Position numbers and translations under genes: made by a program. This document shows positions 25,708 to 39,687 of a DNA stretch of 60,015 bases, piece by piece. The notes under the pieces are model-generated. The model was given only the letters and a program-made list of their open reading frames with translations. It had not been told where the DNA came from and did not search any database. This stretch comes from a virus: positions 1 through 60,015 of the IMG/VR virus record IMGVR_UViG_3300044621_001273; one strand, written 5' to 3'. The first letter of the stretch is position 1. Every line of letters starts with the position of its first letter.

Positions 25708-25911
25708 ATGAAGATTCATGAAGTTGTTGAACAGGAAGACGGCAGTGCTTTGCTGATCTATGAATTGACTTCTGAAGAAGTACAGCTCATTCTTAGTACC
25801 ACCATCACAAAAGCCCTGACAGAGTTTGTTGAAAAGATGGACAAGGCTACAGTTTCTATTAAGGAAGTAGACGATGACGGCAAGAGCGAAGCTGATCTGG
25901 GCAACGCCTAA
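25708..25911 (+). CDS. 67-aa early protein
   Basis: The product starts MKIHEVVEQEDGSALLIYEL and is a strand-helix small domain with an acidic end. AAGGAG precedes ATG 25708. Its last 38 nt overlap thyX in another frame. Unknown function. Confidence 0.6.
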   Translation: MKIHEVVEQEDGSALLIYELTSEEVQLILSTTITKALTEFVEKMDKATVSIKEVDDDGKSEADLGNA

Positions 25912-26500
25912 CCTAGAGAGCGTCGTTGCCTATTGTGCTCGGGTAAGCAATCCCAGCAATCAAAGCAACGACGCAACAGCAGGTAAGTTGTTGCGCTATT
26001 GCATGAAGCATGGACATTGGTCTGTGTTTGAAATGGGCAACATCTGTATAGAACTGGAAACAACAAGAGACATTGCTAGGCAGATTCTTCGACATCGCAG
26101 CTTCAGCTTTCAAGAGTTTAGCCAGCGCTATGCTGAAGTCACTGACTACAGCGTCGGTGAAGCCAGGCTACAAGACAACAAGAACAGACAAAATTCCATC
26201 CCCACTGAAGACCGAGAGCTAACACGCTGGTGGACAGAGCAGCAAGTGTCGGTGTGGATCAAGGCTAGACAGGCTTATGAGCAAGCGCTGGCAAATGGTG
26301 TAGCAAAGGAAGTGGCTCGGAAGGTGTTGCCTGAAGGGCTGACGATGTCGAGGATGTATGTCAATGGTACAGTACGAAGCTGGTTGCATTACATTGATGT
26401 TCGATGTGATGTTGCTACACAAAAGGAGCACAGAGATGTAGCAGAGCAGTGTAAAGAAATTGTCTACAATCTTTTACCTTCATTAAAGGAGAAGGTGTGA
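25874..26500 (+). CDS. thyX: FAD-dependent thymidylate synthase
   Basis: The 208-aa enzyme converts dUMP to dTMP with methylenetetrahydrofolate, FAD and NADPH. The ThyX signature RHRSFSFQEFSQRY stands at residues 73-86, and the C-terminal region has RSWLHYIDVR and AQ-type residues of the substrate site. It supports thymidine supply for phage DNA together with the reductase at 27900. The start overlaps the previous gene by 38 nt; the stop overlaps the methyltransferase GTG. Confidence 0.93.
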   Translation: MTARAKLIWATPNLESVVAYCARVSNPSNQSNDATAGKLLRYCMKHGHWSVFEMGNICIELETTRDIARQILRHRSFSFQEFSQRYAEVTDYSVGEARLQDNKNRQNSIPTEDRELTRWWTEQQVSVWIKARQAYEQALANGVAKEVARKVLPEGLTMSRMYVNGTVRSWLHYIDVRCDVATQKEHRDVAEQCKEIVYNLLPSLKEKV

Positions 26501-27306
26501 ATGAGTTGGCTCTTTTCGCAGGCGCTGGTGGAGGAATTCTTGGGGGACATTTGCTCGGATGGAGAACCGTCTGCGCCGTTGAATGGGAACCCTATCCAGC
26601 AAGCGTACTTGCCGCCAGACAGAATGACGGCGTTCTCCCGACTTTCCCAATTTGGGATGATGTTCAAACCTTTGACGGAAAACCGTGGAGAGGAATTGTT
26701 GACGTCGTATCTGGAGGCTTTCCGTGCCAGGACATATCAACAGCAGGAAAAGGTGCTGGAATCAACGGAGCAAGAAGTGGAATGTGGTATCACATGGCAC
26801 GAATCATCGGAGAAGTACAACCAAAATATGTCTTCGTTGAAAACAGCCCAGTCCTACGTACTAGAGGACTTGTCAGAGTTCTCAAAGACCTTGCCTCGCT
26901 CGGGTATGATGCAAGATGGACAGTATTGGGAGCAGCCGACGTCGGTGCTCCGCACAAAAGAGATAGGATGTGGGTTGTGGCCCACTCCAACAGTCTGCGG
27001 CAAATACAATCGCAAGGGAGCCAGCGCGACCAGCGGGGATGGTTTAGCGACGGCAGTGAAGATGTGGCCAACACCTCAAGCACAAGATGCAAAACACAGC
27101 GGCAAGAACACAGAGAACAGGATAAATCAAGGAAGACAGTTGCAGCTTGCCCACACAGCAGGTATTGGTGGCAAACTGAACCCAACGTGGGTAGAGTGGC
27201 TAATGGGATGGCCGCTCGGGTGGACCGACTTAAAGCCATTGGTAACGGACAAGTCCCCCTATGTGCCGCAGAAGCCTTCAAGCACTTGTCACAACAGTTT
27301 ACCTGA
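26497..27306 (+). CDS. dcm: C5 cytosine DNA methyltransferase
   Basis: The 269-aa enzyme should methylate cytosines in phage DNA, protecting it from restriction. Motif I is LALFAGAGGG, motif IV GGFPCQDIS with catalytic Cys77, motif VI VENSP, motif VIII PHKRDRMW, and motifs IX-X VDRLKAIGNGQVP. The target-recognition region is short. It starts at GTG 26497, 5 nt after AAGGAG and overlapping the thyX stop. Nearly its whole length is overlapped by another open frame (26501-27337). Confidence 0.9.
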   Translation: MNELALFAGAGGGILGGHLLGWRTVCAVEWEPYPASVLAARQNDGVLPTFPIWDDVQTFDGKPWRGIVDVVSGGFPCQDISTAGKGAGINGARSGMWYHMARIIGEVQPKYVFVENSPVLRTRGLVRVLKDLASLGYDARWTVLGAADVGAPHKRDRMWVVAHSNSLRQIQSQGSQRDQRGWFSDGSEDVANTSSTRCKTQRQEHREQDKSRKTVAACPHSRYWWQTEPNVGRVANGMAARVDRLKAIGNGQVPLCAAEAFKHLSQQFT

Positions 27307-27337
27307 CGGCAGCTACTACGGAACCAACACAGCATGA
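26501..27337 (+). CDS. Second protein encoded in an alternative frame across the methyltransferase gene
   Basis: A 278-residue frame with no stop runs through the methyltransferase gene. Its product carries blocks that I recognise from 'hypothetical' phage proteins: LTENRGEELLTSYLEAF, EKVLESTEQEVECGITWH, LPRSGMMQDGQYWEQPT, GLWPTP and LNPTWVEWLMGWPLGWTDL. ATG 26501 uses the same AAGGAG as the methyltransferase (9 nt). Its stop, not that of the methyltransferase, forms the ATGA overlap with the next gene at 27334, as expected for a translated cistron. It could still be a frame shadow kept open by the conserved methylase sequence. Function unknown. Confidence 0.6.
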   Translation: MSWLFSQALVEEFLGDICSDGEPSAPLNGNPIQQAYLPPDRMTAFSRLSQFGMMFKPLTENRGEELLTSYLEAFRARTYQQQEKVLESTEQEVECGITWHESSEKYNQNMSSLKTAQSYVLEDLSEFSKTLPRSGMMQDGQYWEQPTSVLRTKEIGCGLWPTPTVCGKYNRKGASATSGDGLATAVKMWPTPQAQDAKHSGKNTENRINQGRQLQLAHTAGIGGKLNPTWVEWLMGWPLGWTDLKPLVTDKSPYVPQKPSSTCHNSLPDGSYYGTNTA

Positions 27338-27516
27338 AACAGCTTATGATTGATCCACCATCGGGGTGGAGATATGGGTTTCCTAGAGTCATCCCTGACG
27401 GTGTGACAGACCATCAAGCATGGTTGATTGAGAATGGTTATCCATCTTCACTCATCGATGAATTTGGTGAGCACTTCTATTGCAAGTATTGGTATGTGGG
27501 CACAGATGATGAATGA
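27334..27516 (+). CDS. Conserved small phage protein (MIDPPSGWRYGFP type)
   Basis: The 60-aa protein contains MIDPPSGWRYGFPRVIPDG, a conserved opening familiar from many phages, then WLIENGYPSSLIDEFG. Function unknown. The start is in an ATGA overlap with the alternative-frame gene, and the stop overlaps the MazG start. Confidence 0.75.
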   Translation: MKQLMIDPPSGWRYGFPRVIPDGVTDHQAWLIENGYPSSLIDEFGEHFYCKYWYVGTDDE

Positions 27517-27826
27517 CTTTGACACCTACCAACAGCAGTCTTGGAAGTTTGCGCTTGACTCAGCTAAGAACAATGAATATCTATTCAATGGCTTAGCTGG
27601 TGAAGTTGGAGAAGTTTGTAGCCTTCGTGCTAAAGCCATTAGAGACGGTTATTCAGACAACTACACAGAGATGCTGAAGAAAGAGCTTGGTGATGTCTTG
27701 TGGTTTGTCTCAAGCATTGCTAAGATGTATGACATCCCGTTGTCTGACGTGGCTATGTACAACATCAACAAGCTATACTCTCGTCAACAACGTAACGTCA
27801 TAGGAGGTAGTGGAGACGAACGATAA
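27509..27826 (+). CDS. MazG-like nucleotide pyrophosphohydrolase
   Basis: The 105-aa protein has FNGLAGEVGEVCSLRAKAI followed by LKKELGDVLWFVSSIAKM: the EExxE-type (here GEVGEV) and ExxD metal-binding helices of the MazG fold. It may clean the nucleotide pool or lower (p)ppGpp signalling. Start ATG 27509 (or 27506) overlaps the preceding gene. Last gene before a terminator. Confidence 0.85.
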   Translation: MNDFDTYQQQSWKFALDSAKNNEYLFNGLAGEVGEVCSLRAKAIRDGYSDNYTEMLKKELGDVLWFVSSIAKMYDIPLSDVAMYNINKLYSRQQRNVIGGSGDER

Positions 27827-27855
27827 TGTGATATAACCACCGACCCCGTTTTGTT

Positions 27856-27881
27856 AAGGCAGCAGAGATGCTGCCTTTTGT
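27856..27881 (+). terminator. Rho-independent terminator
   Basis: AAGGCAGC-AGAGAT-GCTGCCTT followed by TTG forms a perfect 8-bp stem between mazG and the ribonucleotide reductase gene. Confidence 0.8.
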
Positions 27882-27899
27882 ATCTGTGAGGAAGAATAA

Positions 27900-29795
27900 A
27901 TGACACCATATCAAACCTACATTGCAAAGAGCCGCTATGCACGTTTCCTTGATGACAAAGGACGCCGTGAGCATTGGCATGAAAGCGTCAAGCGCTATTT
28001 CGATTTCATGCAGACTCATTTGAAGAAGAACCACAACTACGACATCCCTGCTGATCTGCGGCAGAAGCTGGAAACAGAGATGGTAAACCGTGAGGTGTTG
28101 CCGTCTATGCGTGCCATCATGACCGCTGGTGAGGCTCTGGAGCGTCAGAACGTTGCTGGTTACAACTGCTCCTATATGCCCATTGACGACGCTAAGGCGT
28201 TTGATGAAGCCATGTACATCCTGCTGTGTGGCACTGGTGTAGGCTTTAGCGTGGAACAAAAGTATGTCAACAAGCTCCCTGAAGTACCTGATCGTCTCTT
28301 TGACTCTAACACTGTGGTTGTTGTCAAGGACTCCAAGGAAGGTTGGGCAAAGTCTTTGCGTCAAATCATCGCCCTTCTTTATGCAGGCGAAATCCCAAAA
28401 TGGGACGTCTCTGCTGTGCGTCCCTCAGGCACACGATTGAAGACCTTTGGTGGGCGTGCCAGTGGGCCTGGTCCGCTGGAAGACCTGTTCAAGTATGTTG
28501 TTGCCAAGTTCAAAGGCGCTGTCGGCCGTAAGCTGACCAGTCTTGAGGCACATGACATCTTGTGCAAGATTGGTGAAGTTGTTGTGGTTGGTGGTGTTCG
28601 TCGTAGTGCAATGATTTCATTGTCTGATCTCAGCGATGATCGCATGGCGCACGCTAAGGCAGGAAGTTGGTGGGACGGCAACGGTCAGCGTGCTCTTGCA
28701 AACAACAGCGCTGTGTATGACAGCAAGCCTGATGTCGGTAAGTTCATGCGTGAGTGGTGCTCCATCTATGACAGCCACAGTGGTGAGCGAGGCATCTTCA
28801 GCCGCTATGCAAGTGATCTCCAAGCAGCTAAGAATGGAAGGAGAGAACTAGGACATGAGTGGGGTACGAACCCTTGCAGCGAGATTATTCTTCGTCCTTA
28901 TCAATTCTGCAATCTATCTACCATTGCTGTTCGTAGCGGTGATACTGTGGAGCGATTGGCTGATAAGGTTGCTATGGCAACGATCTTGGGCACCTTTCAA
29001 TCGACGATGACCAACTTCCCATATCTGCGAAAGATTTGGCAGACCAACACAGAACAAGAGCGTCTGTTGGGTGTGTCTATGACGGGCATTCTTGACAATG
29101 CTCTTCTGAACAACCCGGACAATCCTGAGTTGCCTGCTATTCTTGAACGTCTGAGGGCCATCTCCGTTGAAACCAACGCCAAGTTTGCTGCTGACATTGG
29201 CATCAACGTCTCGGCTGCTATCACCTGTGTCAAGCCTGAAGGAACAGCATCACAACTGACAGGCACTGCCAGTGGTATTCATCCACAACACTCTGCCTAT
29301 TACATCCGTCGTGTCCGCAGTGACAACAAAGATCCTCTGACGGATTTCATGAAGCAAGCAGGCTTCCCCGCTGAGCCTTGTGTGATGAAGCCAGAAAGCA
29401 CCACTGTCTTCTCCTTCCCGATGAAGTCAGATGGTGATGCTGTTCTGCGCGATCACATCGATGCTTTGAAGCATCTGAAGCTGTGGTTGATGTTCCAACG
29501 TCACTGGTGTGAGCACAAGCCTTCTGTGACCATCTCTGTGAAGGAAGAGGAATGGCCTGCTGTTGGTGCTTGGGTGTGGCAACACTTCGATGAAATCACT
29601 GGCGTTAGCTTCCTTCCATATGACGGAGGCACTTATCGCCAGGCTCCATATGAGGAAATCAATGGAGATCAATACGAAGAGATGCTGAAGCTAATGCCAA
29701 CCGACATCAATTGGGACGGTTTCCTAGAGATGACGGACAACGTTGAGGGAATTCAGATGTTGTCCTGTACCGCAGGTAGCTGTGAAATTCGCTAA
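27900..29795 (+). CDS. nrdJ: Class II (adenosylcobalamin-dependent) ribonucleotide reductase
   Basis: The 631-aa enzyme reduces ribonucleotides to deoxyribonucleotides using coenzyme B12 from the host. The order of blocks fits the monomeric RTPR type: NVAGYNCSYMP (redox Cys), CGTGVGFSVE, TNPCSEIIL with the radical-relay Cys and Glu, then VTCVKPEGTASQL-type substrate loop, and a C-terminal redox pair in SCTAGSC. It is somewhat shorter than the Lactobacillus enzyme. Intrinsic terminators flank it on both sides, so its expression is set apart from the replication genes. Confidence 0.93.
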   Translation: MTPYQTYIAKSRYARFLDDKGRREHWHESVKRYFDFMQTHLKKNHNYDIPADLRQKLETEMVNREVLPSMRAIMTAGEALERQNVAGYNCSYMPIDDAKAFDEAMYILLCGTGVGFSVEQKYVNKLPEVPDRLFDSNTVVVVKDSKEGWAKSLRQIIALLYAGEIPKWDVSAVRPSGTRLKTFGGRASGPGPLEDLFKYVVAKFKGAVGRKLTSLEAHDILCKIGEVVVVGGVRRSAMISLSDLSDDRMAHAKAGSWWDGNGQRALANNSAVYDSKPDVGKFMREWCSIYDSHSGERGIFSRYASDLQAAKNGRRELGHEWGTNPCSEIILRPYQFCNLSTIAVRSGDTVERLADKVAMATILGTFQSTMTNFPYLRKIWQTNTEQERLLGVSMTGILDNALLNNPDNPELPAILERLRAISVETNAKFAADIGINVSAAITCVKPEGTASQLTGTASGIHPQHSAYYIRRVRSDNKDPLTDFMKQAGFPAEPCVMKPESTTVFSFPMKSDGDAVLRDHIDALKHLKLWLMFQRHWCEHKPSVTISVKEEEWPAVGAWVWQHFDEITGVSFLPYDGGTYRQAPYEEINGDQYEEMLKLMPTDINWDGFLEMTDNVEGIQMLSCTAGSCEIR

Positions 29796-29807
29796 TCAGT
29801 AACAAAC

Positions 29808-29832
29808 AGAGGGCTATAATGGCCCTCTTTTC
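29808..29832 (+). terminator. Rho-independent terminator
   Basis: AGAGGGC-TATAATG-GCCCTCT followed by TTTTC lies 12 nt after the reductase stop. The loop happens to contain TATAAT. Confidence 0.85.
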
Positions 29833-29851
29833 ATTTGTAGGAAGGAGATTT

Positions 29852-30604
29852 ATGGTAACGAAGAAGAGGGCAGCTTTGTTTGAAGGCAACGGTGAAGCGC
29901 CTCCAGCGCAGCGAACAAACTCTCTTAAGGTGAAGCTAGACGACATGTCAACGATTCAGCCTAAGAGTGATACACAACGTGATTTCTTTGAAGCCTATGC
30001 CAGAGGCCACTACTTCATGTGTCTTCACGGTGTCGCAGGTACAGGCAAGTCCTACATCGCCCTGTACAAAGCCTTAGAAGACGTCCTAGATAGGTCTACA
30101 CCGTTTGGTAAGGTGGTCATCATCAGGTCTGCTGTACAAAGCAGAGAGATGGGATATTTGCCTGGTGGTGTTGATGAGAAGATGGAGGTGTACATCCAGC
30201 CCTATCGTCAAATCACAACAGACTTGTTTGCACGCAAGGACGCTTGGGACAGGCTCTGTGAGCAAGGACACGTAGAGTTTTTGTCTACGTCGTTCATCAG
30301 AGGCACCACCTTCAGCAACAGCATCATCCTCGTTGATGAGTTCCAAAACTGCAACTTTGAAGAACTCGACACCGTCATCACCCGCGTTGGACACACCAGT
30401 AAAATCATCTTCTGTGGTGATGTACGTCAGACTGATTTGAAGAAGAAAGACGATAAGTCTGGCTTGAACAAGTTCTTGAACATTGCTGGTGCTATGAAGC
30501 AATTCAGTAAATTTGAGTTCACTGTAGATGACATCTGCCGCAGCAGCTTGGTGAAGGACTACATTGTGGCTAAGATGCAATATGAAGATGGAGAACAACA
30601 ATGA
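29852..30604 (+). CDS. phoH: PhoH-like P-loop ATPase
   Basis: The 250-aa protein has Walker A GVAGTGKS (about residues 60-67), a sensor-type segment RSAVQSREMGYLPGG, Walker B SIILVDEFQN and FCGDVRQTD, the PhoH core. Phage PhoH proteins are ATPases of unclear role, perhaps in RNA metabolism or phosphate stress. Start ATG 29852 follows AAGGAG; the earlier in-frame ATG at 29819 lies in the terminator hairpin and is rejected. Confidence 0.88.
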   Translation: MVTKKRAALFEGNGEAPPAQRTNSLKVKLDDMSTIQPKSDTQRDFFEAYARGHYFMCLHGVAGTGKSYIALYKALEDVLDRSTPFGKVVIIRSAVQSREMGYLPGGVDEKMEVYIQPYRQITTDLFARKDAWDRLCEQGHVEFLSTSFIRGTTFSNSIILVDEFQNCNFEELDTVITRVGHTSKIIFCGDVRQTDLKKKDDKSGLNKFLNIAGAMKQFSKFEFTVDDICRSSLVKDYIVAKMQYEDGEQQ

Positions 30605-31688: not shown

Positions 31689-34600
31689 CTATCTTCTTAG
31701 AACAAATCCACCTTTGTTGAAGTCTTTACCAATAGCTTCAGCAATGTCAAATTCACCGTGAATGATGCGAAGTTTGTCACGCAGTGACTCTGGTCTTCTC
31801 TTCTCTGTCTTGATAAATCTATCAACAGCAGCGTCTCTCTTCTCTTTGCCAAGACCCTCAAACATCCTGTTGACACTCTTCTCAGGATTTGTTTCGAGAT
31901 AGGTATCTTGTACGTTAGTCTTAGCCATGCTGATGGCTTGACTAATTCTTGACTTCATAGTCCTACGTTGTTCATTGATAGACAAAAAAGGATAAGCCTT
32001 GTCTTTGTTGACAAGATCATCCACAGCAGCCTCAACAAGAGGTGCAGCTTCTCTGATGGTGAGATTGTCTAAGGTGCGGTCGCCAGTGGACTTGTACAAG
32101 CTAAAGGAAGGAATACGCAGACGAGCTAGTTCGTTCTCTGCCACACTTGTTGGAGGAGTAGGACGAACACCTTGAAGCTGTCTCAACACCGTAGGAACCT
32201 GTTGTGGTGTTGTCTGGAACAGCGAAGGACGCTCTTCTAAGAACCCTCTAGCGCCTGGTATAGGCCCTAAGACAGGGGCTGCAACAGCGCCAGCAAAGGT
32301 GCCTAAGCCTTCTACAGGCGCTCTGGTGTCAACGACACTGTAGTCTTCCAACAAGAAGTTAACAGCGTCATAGGCGGGATTGAAGAAGTTGTCAAAACGT
32401 CCTAAGAAGTCTCCAACTTCTGTGCCTGCTTTTCTTTCAACATCTGTAGTGATACCTTCTTCAAACAGACGGGATACCCTCTCAAACACAGTATTCTGTG
32501 AGAGCGAAGACCTGCCCATGCCTGTCATAATCTCCATAAATTTCTGCCCGTCGAACTTCCTGACTCTGTTGAGTTCAAGCTGCTCAGCCTTTAGTAAAAG
32601 TTCTTGACGTCCTTTTTCGTTTAAGGCAAGACTTTCAGCTTGTTGTTTAAACTTGGTAGCCTCTTGTTGTCTTTCTTCTTTAGACATCTTCAGCGTGTAC
32701 CAAAGAGTCTGAGACATGTCTCTCATTAATAAAGCAGCCTCTGCCATGTAAGAGATGTTGACAAACGGGAATAACCCACTGCCGTCTTTAATATTGCCAT
32801 CATCATCTCTATACTGATGTGCTTCAAGATCAGAGTTTTCTTCTCGAAACGCCATTGCTCCGTAGATAACAGAAGTTCCAACAGTAGCGTCTAATATTTT
32901 CTTCTTTGCGTCATAAGCCAAACCAGCAGCTTTTGCTCCAAACTCATCGGCTTCTTTGTCGTTACCGGCTGCTCTAAGTTTCTCACTTTCATTCAGAAAC
33001 TTCCTAGATTGTCTGAGTTCTTGAACACCGCCTAAAGCAGAGGCTGGTGTCATGCGATAGGTATATCGAATAGAGTTCAAGCTGAAGCGCATGAATGGAT
33101 GAATTAGCTTACCAGGGATACCAGCTAAACCATTCCTGTTGAAAAGCTGAAGCGTAAATGCTGCTAAGTTCTCAGCAGCCCCTTCAAAGCTCTTCTCCCC
33201 CGTCTTCTTAAACTCATATGAGAAGGTTAGCTTCAGAGCATCATCGGCAGCTTCTTTAAGCAGGGCAACAGGAATAGCCTTATTATTTGCAATGAAGTCT
33301 TCGTAGTCCAAGCCAACAGCATCCATTCTGTCTTTGACAGCTTGTAAGAAGATAGGACGACGAACAACACTGTCAACGGCTCTGTTGGCAATGTTGATGG
33401 TGTTCATTACCTTTGCAACGGATGCTGGCAACCCTCTGCTATCTGTTTCAGCACCGACAGAGCTAAGCAAATTATTAAGACGAGGCTGATTCTTCAACAT
33501 CAAGTCTGTAACTTCGGATGTGTAGCCAGCATCAGCCATTGTTTTAAGAACAAAGAAGCTGTCAGCAAAGGCTTCAGAGACGTCTTCTTTGGCTCTGTCT
33601 TTAGTTAGAACACCACCTCTTAGGTCATATAACATTCTTCCTGCTGTTGAATACACAGCATCAACAGTGTCGGCAGCTACCTTCAAAGGAACAGAACCAG
33701 CAAGACCAATGGCGTTTAGCACGGCAGTGGACAAGCTGGCAGTTGAAGCAGCAACGGATGTCCCAACAACCCCAGTACCAAAGTCTATTGCTTTACCTGA
33801 CCAATACTCAGTGCCATAGGAAGCCCTTGACATATTCTTCAGAGCTTCTTCCAGCTTAGGATCACCCTTAGTTGCTTTGTTCAGAAACTGTGCCAACGAA
33901 GATGCTTCCTTCAACGTTGCACCGGCCTGAGACAGCGTCACTCTAAACGTCTCTAAGAACTCTTTGTTGTTGACACCAGCGCGTGCTGCTGCCTGTTGAA
34001 TGGTGTCAACATCGGCTTCTTTAAGCGTGTTAGCAACAGCCTGTGTAATTCTCACTTCATTCAAATCAGGGCGAAGCAATGGGTTATCGATGTAAATCTG
34101 CTTAGCCACTTTGAAGATGTCAGCAACAGTGTTTTCATTCAACACAGCTTCAGTGACAGCACCAGGAGCATCCATCTTGTCCAGTGTTTCTTTTCTGGCT
34201 TCACGCCTAGCAAAACTATCGGCAAACAACGCTTTTCTGTTCTCACCAACAGACTTCTCCTTTGCAGCAAATTGCTTCAAGAAGTCTGCTGTTTGCTTAT
34301 CAGTGAGGGCAGGCGCTCCCTTCTTACGTTGAGCCAAGGAAGCAATGCGGGCAGGAGCTTGTTCAGCCTTGATGTCTGCAACACCTTTACCACCGACAGC
34401 GCCTAAAGCAGTAGCAACACCGACAGACAAAGCTGTCTGTGCATAACTCATTTCTTCTCTAAGACCAAGTTCTTTTTCTGTACGTTGTCTTATGACATCT
34501 TGAGTACCGGCAGCACCACCTTCAACAGCGGCTGTGACACCAGTAACAGCCAAGGCTTTCTTGGTAGCGCTAACAACAGCAGGTTTCAACAGAGCTTGTT

Positions 34601-35243
34601 TAGTCAACCAGCCAGCAACACCACCAACATATGTCGAAGGACTAGTTAAAACCGCCCTCAACTCTTGAGTAAAGGTAGTGCCTAGTTCTTTAGCAACACC
34701 ATAAGCCTGCCTCGCCACTTCCTTCTGCTCAGGCTTCGCATTCAACGCCCATGTCAGTTCATAGCCTAGCTCCATGTCATTCTTAGCCTGAGAACGCTGA
34801 AACTCCTCCACCAGCTTCACAGGCTCTTTAGGCATGGGCTTGTTGGGGAAGCGCTCCTTCATATAGCGCTGAATGATGTTGAGCTTGTCCTTCTGTGAAG
34901 CAATGTCAGAAACAGTGACAGGTGTTCCCATCTCTAGCATGGGACCAAAGCCTTCCATCTCCATCGTGGAACCAAAGCGGCCTGTGGTGTCAACATCACC
35001 TACCTCAGTGAAGGCGGCTGTAGGCATCCGTCCAGAAGGCGTAGGAGGCGCTACAGGGGCTGTAACAGGCGTTGGTGTAGGACGGGTAGGCTGAGCCTGT
35101 GCAGCGCGAACAGGGGCTGTTCTGGCGGGTTGTGGAGGCTCTTCTGTAGAGACAGAGCCTCCAAACTTCTTAGCAAGCCCTTCGTAGTCAGTCTGTACCT
35201 GACCGCCAAACTTCTTAGCAAGTTCTTCGTAGTCTGTTGCCAT
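31689..35243 (-). CDS. Very large internal virion / ejection-type protein (1184 aa)
   Basis: The N-terminus is a tandem repeat DYEELAKKFGGQV / DYEGLAKKFGGSV, then a Pro-rich linker (about residues 35-75) and a long, mostly helical body with Ala/Gly-rich hydrophobic stretches (about residues 190-290 and 480-540). It ends FNKGGFVLRR. Size, helical character and place as the last late gene after the lysis cassette suggest an internal protein ejected with DNA, as T7 gp15/gp16. No transglycosylase motif was found. Confidence 0.7.
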   Translation of the reverse strand: MATDYEELAKKFGGQVQTDYEGLAKKFGGSVSTEEPPQPARTAPVRAAQAQPTRPTPTPVTAPVAPPTPSGRMPTAAFTEVGDVDTTGRFGSTMEMEGFGPMLEMGTPVTVSDIASQKDKLNIIQRYMKERFPNKPMPKEPVKLVEEFQRSQAKNDMELGYELTWALNAKPEQKEVARQAYGVAKELGTTFTQELRAVLTSPSTYVGGVAGWLTKQALLKPAVVSATKKALAVTGVTAAVEGGAAGTQDVIRQRTEKELGLREEMSYAQTALSVGVATALGAVGGKGVADIKAEQAPARIASLAQRKKGAPALTDKQTADFLKQFAAKEKSVGENRKALFADSFARREARKETLDKMDAPGAVTEAVLNENTVADIFKVAKQIYIDNPLLRPDLNEVRITQAVANTLKEADVDTIQQAAARAGVNNKEFLETFRVTLSQAGATLKEASSLAQFLNKATKGDPKLEEALKNMSRASYGTEYWSGKAIDFGTGVVGTSVAASTASLSTAVLNAIGLAGSVPLKVAADTVDAVYSTAGRMLYDLRGGVLTKDRAKEDVSEAFADSFFVLKTMADAGYTSEVTDLMLKNQPRLNNLLSSVGAETDSRGLPASVAKVMNTINIANRAVDSVVRRPIFLQAVKDRMDAVGLDYEDFIANNKAIPVALLKEAADDALKLTFSYEFKKTGEKSFEGAAENLAAFTLQLFNRNGLAGIPGKLIHPFMRFSLNSIRYTYRMTPASALGGVQELRQSRKFLNESEKLRAAGNDKEADEFGAKAAGLAYDAKKKILDATVGTSVIYGAMAFREENSDLEAHQYRDDDGNIKDGSGLFPFVNISYMAEAALLMRDMSQTLWYTLKMSKEERQQEATKFKQQAESLALNEKGRQELLLKAEQLELNRVRKFDGQKFMEIMTGMGRSSLSQNTVFERVSRLFEEGITTDVERKAGTEVGDFLGRFDNFFNPAYDAVNFLLEDYSVVDTRAPVEGLGTFAGAVAAPVLGPIPGARGFLEERPSLFQTTPQQVPTVLRQLQGVRPTPPTSVAENELARLRIPSFSLYKSTGDRTLDNLTIREAAPLVEAAVDDLVNKDKAYPFLSINEQRRTMKSRISQAISMAKTNVQDTYLETNPEKSVNRMFEGLGKEKRDAAVDRFIKTEKRRPESLRDKLRIIHGEFDIAEAIGKDFNKGGFVLRR

Positions 35244-36664
35244 TAGCGGATACCTGCTGCTTTCTTAAAATCGTCTGCTGCCTTCTGATTAGGGAAGGTT
35301 GCCTTGCTTCCATTAGGTAACTCTACAGTGACTGGACCACTTGTTGTGGGAGAGGGCTGTGTTGAAGCTGGTCTAACAGGAGCAGTAGTAGCAGCGGGTG
35401 GTGTTGTTGTCTGAGACGCTGCGCCACCAACTTGTTGTCTTTGAGGTAATGAACCACGCAAACCATAGTTGTACATCACATCGCGCACAGAATCGTAAAG
35501 AGGTTGTCCCTTATCATTGAGGAGACCATAAGCTCTTAGTGCTGCTTGTGCGAAGCTGCGTTTGTCTCTCAAGATTTGTTGTTCAACCTCAGGAGTGACG
35601 CTGCTCTTCAGTCCTCTAGCCACGTAGAACTCACCGTCTCCTAAAGAAATTGTCTTAGGCTCAGAGAACAACTCAACACCATATTTTTCCTCTAGGCGTG
35701 TTTGAATAGCCTTCTCAACACTGGAGGTGATGGTGGCAACGCTCTTAGGTTTATTTCCTTCCATCGCTGTCTTGTGATTTTTGATAGCGGTATAAAGTAC
35801 ATCGAGTTGGGATTTGATAGCAGCGGCAGAATCAGCATCTCCTTCACTCTCAGCCATCTGAAGTTGAGATGCCAGTTTATTGGCTCTTTCATCCAGAGAC
35901 TTAACAGGAGCTTCAATCTGATCTTTTAGAGCGGCTGTTTCTTCTCTAAGTTTTATCAGACGAGGGTCGTCTTTCTTAAATCTTTGTTCTGCATTGAAAA
36001 GATTCATCTGCGCTTTCTCAAACGCCTTTTCAACAGAATCAACCATAGGACCATATTGCTCTGTATTGATGGTAGCAATACCAGAGAAAGGGTCTCTCTG
36101 CAACGGCTGCATATTCTCATAAGCAAGCAGTTCTCTGGCAGAACCGGCGCCTAAGCCGCTAGCAATCTTTTCCACTCTACCGGGCTTAGCTCCAACATTG
36201 AAGCCCATGAAGCCTTCCTTCTGACCAAATGCCTGTTGCATCTGCTCTTCTGTCATTTGTGTTGGAGGAGCACCAACAGTATCAATGAGCCTCCTCACCG
36301 ACTCAAACCCATTAGGAAGCCTCTTTTTAATTTCGTCTTTATTTAATTTGACGAACGTAGCAGCATCAATAGGATCACCGGCTTCTCTGCGTTCTGCAAA
36401 TTGTTTTGCAATGCTGTCGTTGGAGATAAGAGCCAGTGTGATTTCTTCAGGAGTTGATTTGTCAAGCCAAGGCGTTACCTTAGACAAGCGACCAGACAGT
36501 TCTTCCTGTATTGCCTTTCTTTCTTCTTCTCTCTTCTTCTTGTTAATGGCAGCAAATTGAAGACGAGTCTTGACAAGCTCTGCATTTTCTTCTCTTTCTT
36601 TTTCAACACGTGATCCCACGCCTTGAGCAAACCCCGCCAGTGCTCCTAATAAAGCTAGTCCCAT
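35243..36664 (-). CDS. Coiled-coil internal virion protein (473 aa)
   Basis: The protein begins with a hydrophobic glycine-rich segment MGLALLGALAGFAQGVGS, then a long charged coiled coil (EKEREENAELVKTRLQF onward), a Thr/Pro-rich linker and a C-terminal VELPNGSKATFPNQKAADDF type tail. It shares the late-end position with the 1184-aa gene, whose start it overlaps by one base. Probably an internal or ejected virion protein. No catalytic motif. Confidence 0.65.
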   Translation of the reverse strand: MGLALLGALAGFAQGVGSRVEKEREENAELVKTRLQFAAINKKKREEERKAIQEELSGRLSKVTPWLDKSTPEEITLALISNDSIAKQFAERREAGDPIDAATFVKLNKDEIKKRLPNGFESVRRLIDTVGAPPTQMTEEQMQQAFGQKEGFMGFNVGAKPGRVEKIASGLGAGSARELLAYENMQPLQRDPFSGIATINTEQYGPMVDSVEKAFEKAQMNLFNAEQRFKKDDPRLIKLREETAALKDQIEAPVKSLDERANKLASQLQMAESEGDADSAAAIKSQLDVLYTAIKNHKTAMEGNKPKSVATITSSVEKAIQTRLEEKYGVELFSEPKTISLGDGEFYVARGLKSSVTPEVEQQILRDKRSFAQAALRAYGLLNDKGQPLYDSVRDVMYNYGLRGSLPQRQQVGGAASQTTTPPAATTAPVRPASTQPSPTTSGPVTVELPNGSKATFPNQKAADDFKKAAGIR

Positions 36665-36666
36665 GT

Positions 36667-37119
36667 TTACTCCTTAGACATTAAACCACCCTGCTTTACA
36701 GCAGGAGCTTCTTTCACTGTAGCAACAGCACCGCGTAGCACTTCTCTTGCTGTCTTCTCATCAATGTCTGTTGCTTTTTCAAAGTCTTCATCTTCAACAA
36801 CATACCCAACATCATTCATGTCGCCAATGGTTTTCATCAGCTCAATGATGATAGGAATAACAACAAAGCCTAAGTCTACAGTGTGAGTCCCTTTCATGAT
36901 GCCTAGCTTGATGATGCCTTGCGACAGCCTCATCAAAGAGATGTTGTTCTCCATAGCCAGCAACATGCTGTCAACAGCTTCTTCTGTTGTCAATCTCTCA
37001 ACGTAGTACGACACCACTTGATCCAATGTGGTGTACTGCGGCGGCTGTTCCCAAGGTCTATTACCAGGCTCTGTTGTCAAAGACATACCTGGGATGGTGG
37101 GTGATAGTGCTCCAATCAT
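36667..37119 (-). CDS. 150-aa late protein
   Basis: The protein starts MIGALSPTIPGMSLTTEPGN and is helical, with an Asp/Glu-rich stretch (VVEDEDFEKATDIDEKTARE) and the ending KQGGLMSKE, close to the xxGG tails of other late proteins here. Likely a minor virion protein. Overlaps the next gene upstream by 4 nt. Confidence 0.6.
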   Translation of the reverse strand: MIGALSPTIPGMSLTTEPGNRPWEQPPQYTTLDQVVSYYVERLTTEEAVDSMLLAMENNISLMRLSQGIIKLGIMKGTHTVDLGFVVIPIIIELMKTIGDMNDVGYVVEDEDFEKATDIDEKTAREVLRGAVATVKEAPAVKQGGLMSKE

Positions 37120-37331
37120 TTCTTCTTTTCCTTACGTTGACCAACGAGTTCTTGACGTTGCTTCCGAATCATTTCAATATAGTCTGCAAGCTGATCATCC
37201 AAAGCACCAGAAGACTTTGTAGGCTGCTTCATCTTAGGAGCAAGCAGTCCAGACGTAGATACAGGAAGTGTCTTGTTTCTTTTGCTGATGATGGAGTCAA
37301 TGCGACCAATGAGGGATTTGTAGTTTTTCAT
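37116..37331 (-). CDS. 71-aa basic late protein
   Basis: The product starts MKNYKSLIGRIDSIISKRNK and ends KQRQELVGQRKEKKK, basic and helical. It stands between the 778-aa virion protein and the 150-aa gene. Unknown role. Confidence 0.6.
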   Translation of the reverse strand: MKNYKSLIGRIDSIISKRNKTLPVSTSGLLAPKMKQPTKSSGALDDQLADYIEMIRKQRQELVGQRKEKKK

Positions 37332-37350
37332 TGATGTTGTCCTTTGTTAG

Positions 37351-39687
37351 TTATGGAAGAGCCTTGACAAACCCTTCAACAATACTTCCCCACAAACCAG
37401 CTTCAGCAGCTTCTTCAGCAGCAGCGCCTCTAATTTCTGAGATTAACAGCTCTGCTCTTCTATCTTCATTCTTCTCAAAGCTCTGCCACATCTTCTCAAT
37501 CTGATCTCTGAAAAGCTGTGTCTCATTATTGTACTCAGCCAACGTCATCTGCTGCAAATTCTGAGCACCTAAATACAGAGCAGCATTAAGAGCAGCGGTG
37601 TCAGCAGTGCTTACTTCTCTACGCCATTGAGCATTGCTCTGATCGATGACGAGACGCTGCGTAGAGTTAAACTGATCCCTCAGGTTTTCTTGTTCAGTGT
37701 TGAACTTTGTGACTGAGTTCACTTGATCTGTACTAAACTGAGCTAGAGCATTACGCTGAGCTACATTAAACTGAGATATTGTAGAAGCAAGAGTCGCCAT
37801 GAACTGATCTACCTGAGTCTTATTTGCTGCGTTAAACTGTTTAGCAGCATTCTCAGCCGCTGTGTCAGACAACAATGACTGTACAAGTTGCTCTGTCTTA
37901 AACAGTGTTGTCTTCTGCTCTCTGTCGTAGTTTGCCATATCCATTGCCAAGAAAGACTGAGCATTTGTAACAGCAGCTTGCTGTAGGTTGGTTAGGTTGG
38001 TGGTTTCTAACGTAGCCATCTGAGCCGCTTTAGCGATGACAACAGCTTGTCTATTCTCTAAGTTTGCCAAATCCACAGACTGAGCCAGCCTAGCGTTCTC
38101 TAACGCAATTTGTTGTTTAGCTGTGAAGTTGATATTGGCAACGTCAGCAATGCGAGCAGCATTCTTCACCTTCACTTCAAACTCTTGGTTGAACTCTTGT
38201 TCTAAGAAAGCGGCTCTTTGTTGTGCCGCCAGCACAGCCATTGCTTGTCTGTTGCTTAAATTTTGCTCAGCCATTGCTTGATAGGCTTTAGCATCGGTAG
38301 TTGCAATAGGTAAGGCCGACTCAATAGCTGCTTGGACAATAGCAGCGCCTGCCATAGAAGAAGCGCTTAAGCCTCTCTGTGCCATTGTGGCTGTAGCTAC
38401 ACGCAGAGCGCCAGCGGCCCAGCCAGGAGGATTCTTAGCATCAAAATTTGCTGTGAGCTTCGTAAGCTGGCCCTGTACGGTCATGTCTTCAGAGACAACC
38501 CCTTGTGCAGCTTCTTCCTTTGTCTTGGCAATGGCTTCATCAACCTTAGCCATATTGACAGCAGATTTGTCCAAAAGCTCACCAGCACCTACAGTGAGTT
38601 CAGGAGGTGCTTGAACCTCTCTAGCTTTATCAAGCTGTTCTGCTTCTAGGTCGGACAGAACAGTCTCTGTAGGTTCTTTTTGTGCTGCATCAACTTGAGC
38701 TTCTTTGCTGACAGTGCCTTTTACAGCTTGAACACCGCCTTCAGGTTTGAAGGTTCTGACATATTCTTCATATCCTTCTCGTGCGGCATCAATAGGTTCT
38801 CCATCGGGCCCTATTCTTATAACAGCAGGAAAAACCTTATCTTTACTCCACTCTTCAAAGCTAAGTGGCTTGGTTCCCTCTAATACACCTTTAACACCTT
38901 CAGCAGACTTAGACGCCTCCATTGTCGTTGCTGTGATAGCAGCAGGCATCTTTGCTTCTTCAGCCGTTGCTGTCTTAATATCTGTCACCGTCTTAGCAGT
39001 GCCAGCACCCCCTACACCCGAGATGTCTTGCCCCGGTGTAATTGATGTCGTTGCAGGGGTGAAGCCAGCAGCAGCACCTGGTGAAGGTGTACCAGTGCGT
39101 CCTTGTTCTTCGCTGAGGGTGACACCGCCCCCACCTTGTACAGAGCCTGTTTGGTTTGGTTGAACGGTGGAAGGGAATGGACCCGTCTCAGAAATTTGCT
39201 GGGACACCTCAGGAGAAACAGTGACAGGTGTAGTTCCAGTGCTAACGCCTGGAAGGGTGATGTTAGTCGTAGAGGTAGGTGCTGGCGCAGGTGCTGGCGC
39301 AGGTGCTGGCGCAGGTGCTGGCGCAGGTGCTGGCGCAGGTGCTGGCGCAGGTGCAACTGGCTGCGCCCCAGGTCTCAACAAAGCCTGAGGAGGATTAGGA
39401 TCTTCAGGACTAGGGTTCGAAAAGTAAATGGCATTAGCGGCGTACTTCTGCCCCGTGGCTTGATCTGTGTATGTGCCGTCAGCGTTTTGGACAAGGCCGC
39501 CTTCAGCATAACTTGTGACAGACCCTCCCTTAGCCATCCTCTGAGCATACTTATCCGTCACAGAGTTGTACTTCATCATCAACGCTGGTGAGCTATTAAG
39601 AAAGTCATCAAAGCCCTGCATAGGGCCGTCGTAGCCCATCTTACGAGCCAGTATTTCACGCTGCTTAGAGGTAAAGGATGTTTTCAT
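37351..39687 (-). CDS. Large virion protein with Ala-Pro repeat and coiled coil (778 aa)
   Basis: The N-terminus has [18 protein letters not shown] (about residues 53-70), then a perfect Ala-Pro repeat (about residues 112-137), a low-complexity Thr/Gly/Pro region and, from about residue 350, a very long helical Ala/Gln/Asn-rich segment (repeated [20 protein letters not shown]-like heptads). This is typical of internal or tail-associated podoviral proteins that span the capsid core. No lysozyme motif. It follows the lysis genes in the late unit. Confidence 0.7.
39285..39353 (-). repeat. 12-bp tandem repeat coding Ala-Pro
   Basis: The unit GGTGCTGGCGCA (as on the plus strand) is repeated about five to six times without change, encoding the (Ala-Pro)n stretch of the 778-aa protein. 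Identical codons show recent slippage expansion. It shares the 10-mer GTGCTGGCGC with the complement of the array at 8191-8300. Confidence 0.9.

Follow-up and report, generated by a model that had tools for sequence, protein, structure and literature searches.

A single segment of phage DNA, positions 26497 to 27337 of the window (the whole analysed stretch of 60,015 nucleotides), codes for two proteins in two overlapping reading frames, and this dual coding is real and well supported. We consider it quite probable that the locus represents a two-subunit (heterodimeric) C5 cytosine methyltransferase resembling M.EcoHK31I, both chains of which are read from one DNA. The first frame (alpha) is, judged by its sequence, a C5 cytosine methyltransferase, and the second frame (beta) most likely supplies the DNA-recognition part that alpha is missing. 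Most likely the system, carried here by a phage, belongs to a known kind of enzyme that has received little notice, and in some phages both frames are already annotated. The locus consists of the following features:

26486 to 26491, plus strand: AAGGAG, a Shine-Dalgarno-like sequence, 5 nt before the GTG of alpha and 9 nt before the ATG of beta
26497 to 27306, plus strand: alpha, C5 cytosine methyltransferase subunit of 269 aa with a GTG start
26501 to 27337, plus strand: beta, ORF of 278 aa in the +1 frame with an ATG start, 4 nt after the start of alpha
26501 to 26509, plus strand: start of beta, ATG AGT TGG (Met-Ser-Trp), which in the other frame comprises the alpha codons N2-E3-L4
26722 to 26733, plus strand: motif IV of alpha, the catalytic PCQD with Cys77; P76-C77-Q78 are invariant in the alpha alignments
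26953 to 26976, plus strand: region of motif VIII of alpha (HKRDRMWV); H153, R155, R157 and W159 are invariant
26972 to 27172, plus strand: beta's variable region, the proposed TRD, in which W-P-T-P blocks recur; the other frame encodes the linker of alpha here
27176 to 27223, plus strand: motif-IX-like block of beta, LNPTWVEWLMGWPLGW, with a spacing that matches the canonical LTPRECARLMGFP
27226 to 27258, plus strand: motif X of alpha (RLKAIGNGQVP), directly 3' of the beta block; N250, Q252 and V253 are invariant

The gene upstream is thyX (PF02511), which ends at 26500, so that the starts of alpha and beta both lie on the thyX stop. As the preliminary description had stated, both frames are open over their full lengths and a single AAGGAG serves both starts; direct reading bears out the two spacings. 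It had also pointed to an ATGA junction that uses the stop of beta. This junction is present here, the beta stop TGA (27335-27337) sharing bases with the ATG that starts the following ORF at 27334, but it is not conserved, since the betas of homologues mostly end 5-20 nt before the alpha stop. The 60-aa ORF coupled to beta in this way (27334-27516) has no match in Pfam. The methylase is surrounded by a nucleotide-metabolism cluster (25874-30604) comprising ThyX, a MazG-like protein, a class II (B12-dependent) ribonucleotide reductase and PhoH. On the minus strand, three large ORFs of 1184, 473 and 778 aa (31689-39687) are without a PHROGs match at E 0.001.

Alpha matches PF00145 with an E-value of 7.8e-36, the match being confined to residues 4-210, and phrog_363 with an E-value of 1.9e-74. 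Its sequence resembles M.HhaI and M.HaeIII, and the fold of its model matches both over about 170 columns. Motifs I-VIII and X are present, including the characteristics of the PF00145 catalytic domain, namely motif I, the PCQ of motif IV, the ENV/ENS of motif VI and motif VIII in one Rossmann-type domain. The preliminary description had credited this frame with all C5-methylase motifs; this is refuted, as motif IX is absent from alpha at this locus and at all 80 bacterial loci tested. Alpha is not a complete single-chain C5 enzyme, which would carry a TRD and motif IX on one chain in front of motif X. The predicted model of alpha shows a good catalytic fold, an unstructured stretch at residues 172-250 and then the helix of motif X. 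In the linker (residues 161-220) pairwise identity amounts to only 11-18%.

Motif IX is proposed to be located in beta. The block LNPTWVEWLMGWP of this frame is spaced identically to the canonical motif IX LTPRECARLMGFP of single-chain enzymes from the same genomes. Related loci contain 291 occurrences of such an LMGWP-type block, and motif X follows just downstream in the alpha frame in 288 of them and in the beta frame in none; the alpha frame is also open back to PCQ in 270. At the bacterial loci, beta is in the +1 frame in 80 out of 80 cases. The proposal rests on this position, on the spacing and on the complementarity with alpha; none of the tests by profile, motif score or fold reached significance. 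The best match of beta to single-chain methyltransferases in hhalign falls on LMGWP (P=0.45). With a motif-IX PSSM the block is the best site of beta in most sequences, and for the beta described here it reaches P=0.07 against shuffles (13-residue score). Beta has no family match in Pfam and NCBIfam, and its sequence and profiles gave no relevant match in the PDB. Its AlphaFold model, computed with three rows from annotated records left out, is of low confidence (pLDDT 57, pTM 0.24), and comparing its fold gave nothing useful. The variable region also appears to lie in beta, and T-P forms the fixed core of its W-P-T-P blocks.

In a sample of 24 genomes, full-length C5 methyltransferases carry 7-32 stops in the +1 frame, about as many as expected. 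C5 enzymes that end early and are without motif IX possess +1 ORFs over most of the gene, and an open +1 frame was found in this sample only together with alphas that lack motif IX.

The proposed division of labour is as follows. Alpha would contribute motifs I-VIII, which make up the domain for AdoMet binding and catalysis, as well as motif X, the closing helix; beta would provide the target-recognition region together with motif IX. Both chains would have to associate into one active enzyme, in which beta is the required subunit that sets the specificity. The shared ribosome-binding site, located where thyX ends, would couple the yields of alpha and beta. The likely role of such an enzyme is that the phage modifies its own DNA and so protects it from host restriction.

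The preliminary description had regarded beta as a translated partner of the methylase, possibly a modifier or inhibitor. Translation and partnership are supported by the present results, the role of a modifier or inhibitor is not. A beta that acts as a separate regulator (modifier, inhibitor or specificity switch) of an alpha active on its own would be in line with a real, conserved protein outside the Pfam and NCBIfam families, and also with its N-terminal about 100 residues, which overlap the catalytic region of alpha and are without counterpart in the canonical small domain. Nevertheless, we regard this as improbable. Because alpha has neither motif IX nor a folded recognition region, because the motif-IX-like block is found only in beta, at the place expected for motif IX just 5' of motif X, and because the +1 frame is open where alpha has no motif IX, beta would rather be an obligate second subunit.

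Even less probable is a ribosomal frameshift that fuses the catalytic part of alpha to the recognition part of beta. The order on the DNA, with motifs I-VIII in alpha, the variable region and motif IX in beta and motif X again in alpha, is that of a canonical enzyme, but two shifts would be needed for a full enzyme, and this reading does not explain why the overlap is conserved upstream of any shift site. Moreover, joining both frames as one chain extended neither the score nor the match to PF00145, and a shuffled control scored equally. Beta also has a conserved ATG and Shine-Dalgarno sequence of its own. This was seen in 118 homologues of alpha (44-70% identical), about two thirds of which were found by an alpha search that does not require an open beta; they share ancestry, and counts over them are therefore not independent. 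The ATG of beta is present in nearly all homologues and is held by codon choices that are otherwise avoided in alpha: N2 is AAT in 114 of 117 homologues (39% of Asn elsewhere in alpha), E3 is GAG in 110 of 117 (31% elsewhere) and L4 is TTG or CTG in 108 of 117 (27% elsewhere). A 4-nt Shine-Dalgarno core is located 4-12 nt 5' of the beta ATG in 89 of 118 homologues, compared with 26% of internal ATGs. In 21 homologues the start of alpha lies 9-27 nt further upstream; the ATG of beta is kept in these as well, and a Shine-Dalgarno-like sequence precedes beta in 14 of them.

That the open +1 frame is just a by-product of the codon usage of alpha or of RNA structure, with no protein made, is hardly credible in view of the number of stops avoided. 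When the synonymous codons of alpha were permuted, the +1 frame was open in none of 20,000 trials (mean 6.2 stops). Synonymous shuffling over 116 homologues predicts 5.9 stops per gene and a probability of an open frame of about 0.0009; the observed value is 0.06 stops per gene, with 113 of 119 genes free of stops (last 30 nt left out). The other frames carry 17.3 stops per gene (+2) or 4-9 (antisense). Frequent second-frame stops in close homologues, which the preliminary description had named as evidence against its claim of dual coding, are thus not found, the +1 frame staying open in all but a few, and this openness lies far beyond chance. An antisense ORF of 200 aa (26790-27392) was dismissed as a gene on account of the stops in the antisense frames of homologues. 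The homologue in IMGVR_UViG_3300036944_000085 (L107) has one beta stop at codon 144 with the frame intact afterwards and a whole alpha; it may lack beta naturally or contain a sequencing error. At seven bacterial loci (L269, L276, L280, L295, L320, L322 and L328) beta is open although alpha is interrupted or shortened, which may reflect decaying prophages or sequence errors.

The third codon position of alpha is the second position of beta, and therefore nearly all changes that are silent in alpha alter beta. The silent sites of alpha are unusually conserved, with a fourfold-site identity of 0.60 compared with 0.41 in the ribonucleotide reductase of the same window (both at 75-80% amino-acid identity). 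In segments of 20 codons the excess over the control is about 1-3 s.d. in codons 1-140 and 5 s.d. at the motif-IX block; it is absent at codons 141-180 and 201-220. The block has the strongest fourfold-site conservation of the gene (0.98), and its third alpha position is conserved more than the first. Such a pattern is that of a gene whose reading frame is the one of beta, and it argues for constraint on that frame. Some control segments attain comparable silent-site values, and the conservation could partly reflect RNA or codon effects. The beta exchanges at silent sites of alpha have a BLOSUM score of −1.20 against −1.47 expected, which is only slightly better. Because the frame is open, its ATG is kept and the silent sites of alpha are conserved, it is almost certain that beta is translated and that selection acts on it.

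The split arrangement is present in hundreds of phages and bacteria and is usually annotated as one gene. Relatives in IMG/VR number more than 580 among the matches listed. The split was found in phages of Mycobacterium, Vibrio, Klebsiella, Pseudomonas, Microcystis and Paenibacillus as well as on IMG/VR contigs, on plasmids of Leptospira and Paenibacillus, in bacterial genomes of several phyla and in rare prophages of E. coli (4 of 5,426 genomes). Annotation varies: only alpha is annotated in E. coli PT62, only beta in Pseudomonas phPA-G and both frames in Paenibacillus phage Jacopo. In the PT62 prophage (L367), two genes for C5 methyltransferases are annotated in a stretch of about 3 kb, and one of them is dual-coding with its beta unannotated.

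In a tree the dual-coding alphas form one group (support 100/99) against 12 other C5 enzymes, a small outgroup sample with some long branches. Among the mycobacterial and Paenibacillus lines, the frame of beta becomes open or has its start only within alpha, and this suggests that the start of beta at +4 may be a later extension. It may be, with about even chances in our judgement, that this large phage and prophage C5 clade goes back to one ancient event, which moved the recognition part and motif IX of an enzyme with a single chain into the +1 frame. Beta would later have been extended upstream to the start of alpha, until the subunits were wholly interleaved and co-translated from one ribosome-binding site. 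If this is true, specificity is free to evolve in one frame and catalysis is held fixed in the other.

Hundreds of C5 methyltransferases of phages and prophages are apparently annotated as one gene, and probably a second, overlapping gene is needed. If so, alpha cloned alone would give an inactive enzyme, and predictions of specificity made without beta would miss the recognition part. Furthermore, the group is a well-populated case of a long and old overlap on the same strand and lends itself to studies of protein evolution where a single sequence encodes two products.

In M.EcoHK31I, too, the gene of the large subunit contains a second frame that codes for the small one, just as beta lies in the +1 frame of alpha at this locus and at all of the bacterial loci. 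M.EcoHK31I (YGGCCR) has been put to use as a naturally split enzyme (PMC3439449). Its larger chain is described as containing motifs I-VIII and X and its smaller chain motif IX (Lee et al. 1995 as cited in PMC3404938); measured by this description, alpha holds the same set of motifs. However, its predicted TRD was assigned to the larger chain (PMC3404938), whereas the variable region of the phage system apparently resides in beta. Further differences concern beta, which begins 4 nt downstream of the alpha start and runs through the entire alpha gene, and the surroundings of the locus, a phage gene set with thyX, a MazG-like gene and a class II ribonucleotide reductase. M.AquI (CYCGRG) is likewise a C5 methyltransferase split into two chains near the variable region, but both motifs IX and X are on its small subunit (PMC3404938), whereas motif X remains on alpha here; the account in PMC3404938 describes no such overlap of genes for M.AquI. 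Single-chain C5 enzymes of the M.HhaI, M.HaeIII and Dcm type (PF00145) have the catalytic fold and motifs I-VIII and X in common with alpha; they carry motif IX and the TRD on the same chain, and those sampled are without an open +1 frame. Phages of Paenibacillus larvae possess overlapping pairs of genes annotated as 'DNA methyltransferase'; in Jacopo (NC_048718), for example, the annotated coding sequences gp56 and gp57 stand in +1 relation like alpha and beta, with an LMGFP-type block in gp57 and motif X in gp56. There, gp57 starts about 200 nt inside gp56, whereas beta starts at the start of alpha.
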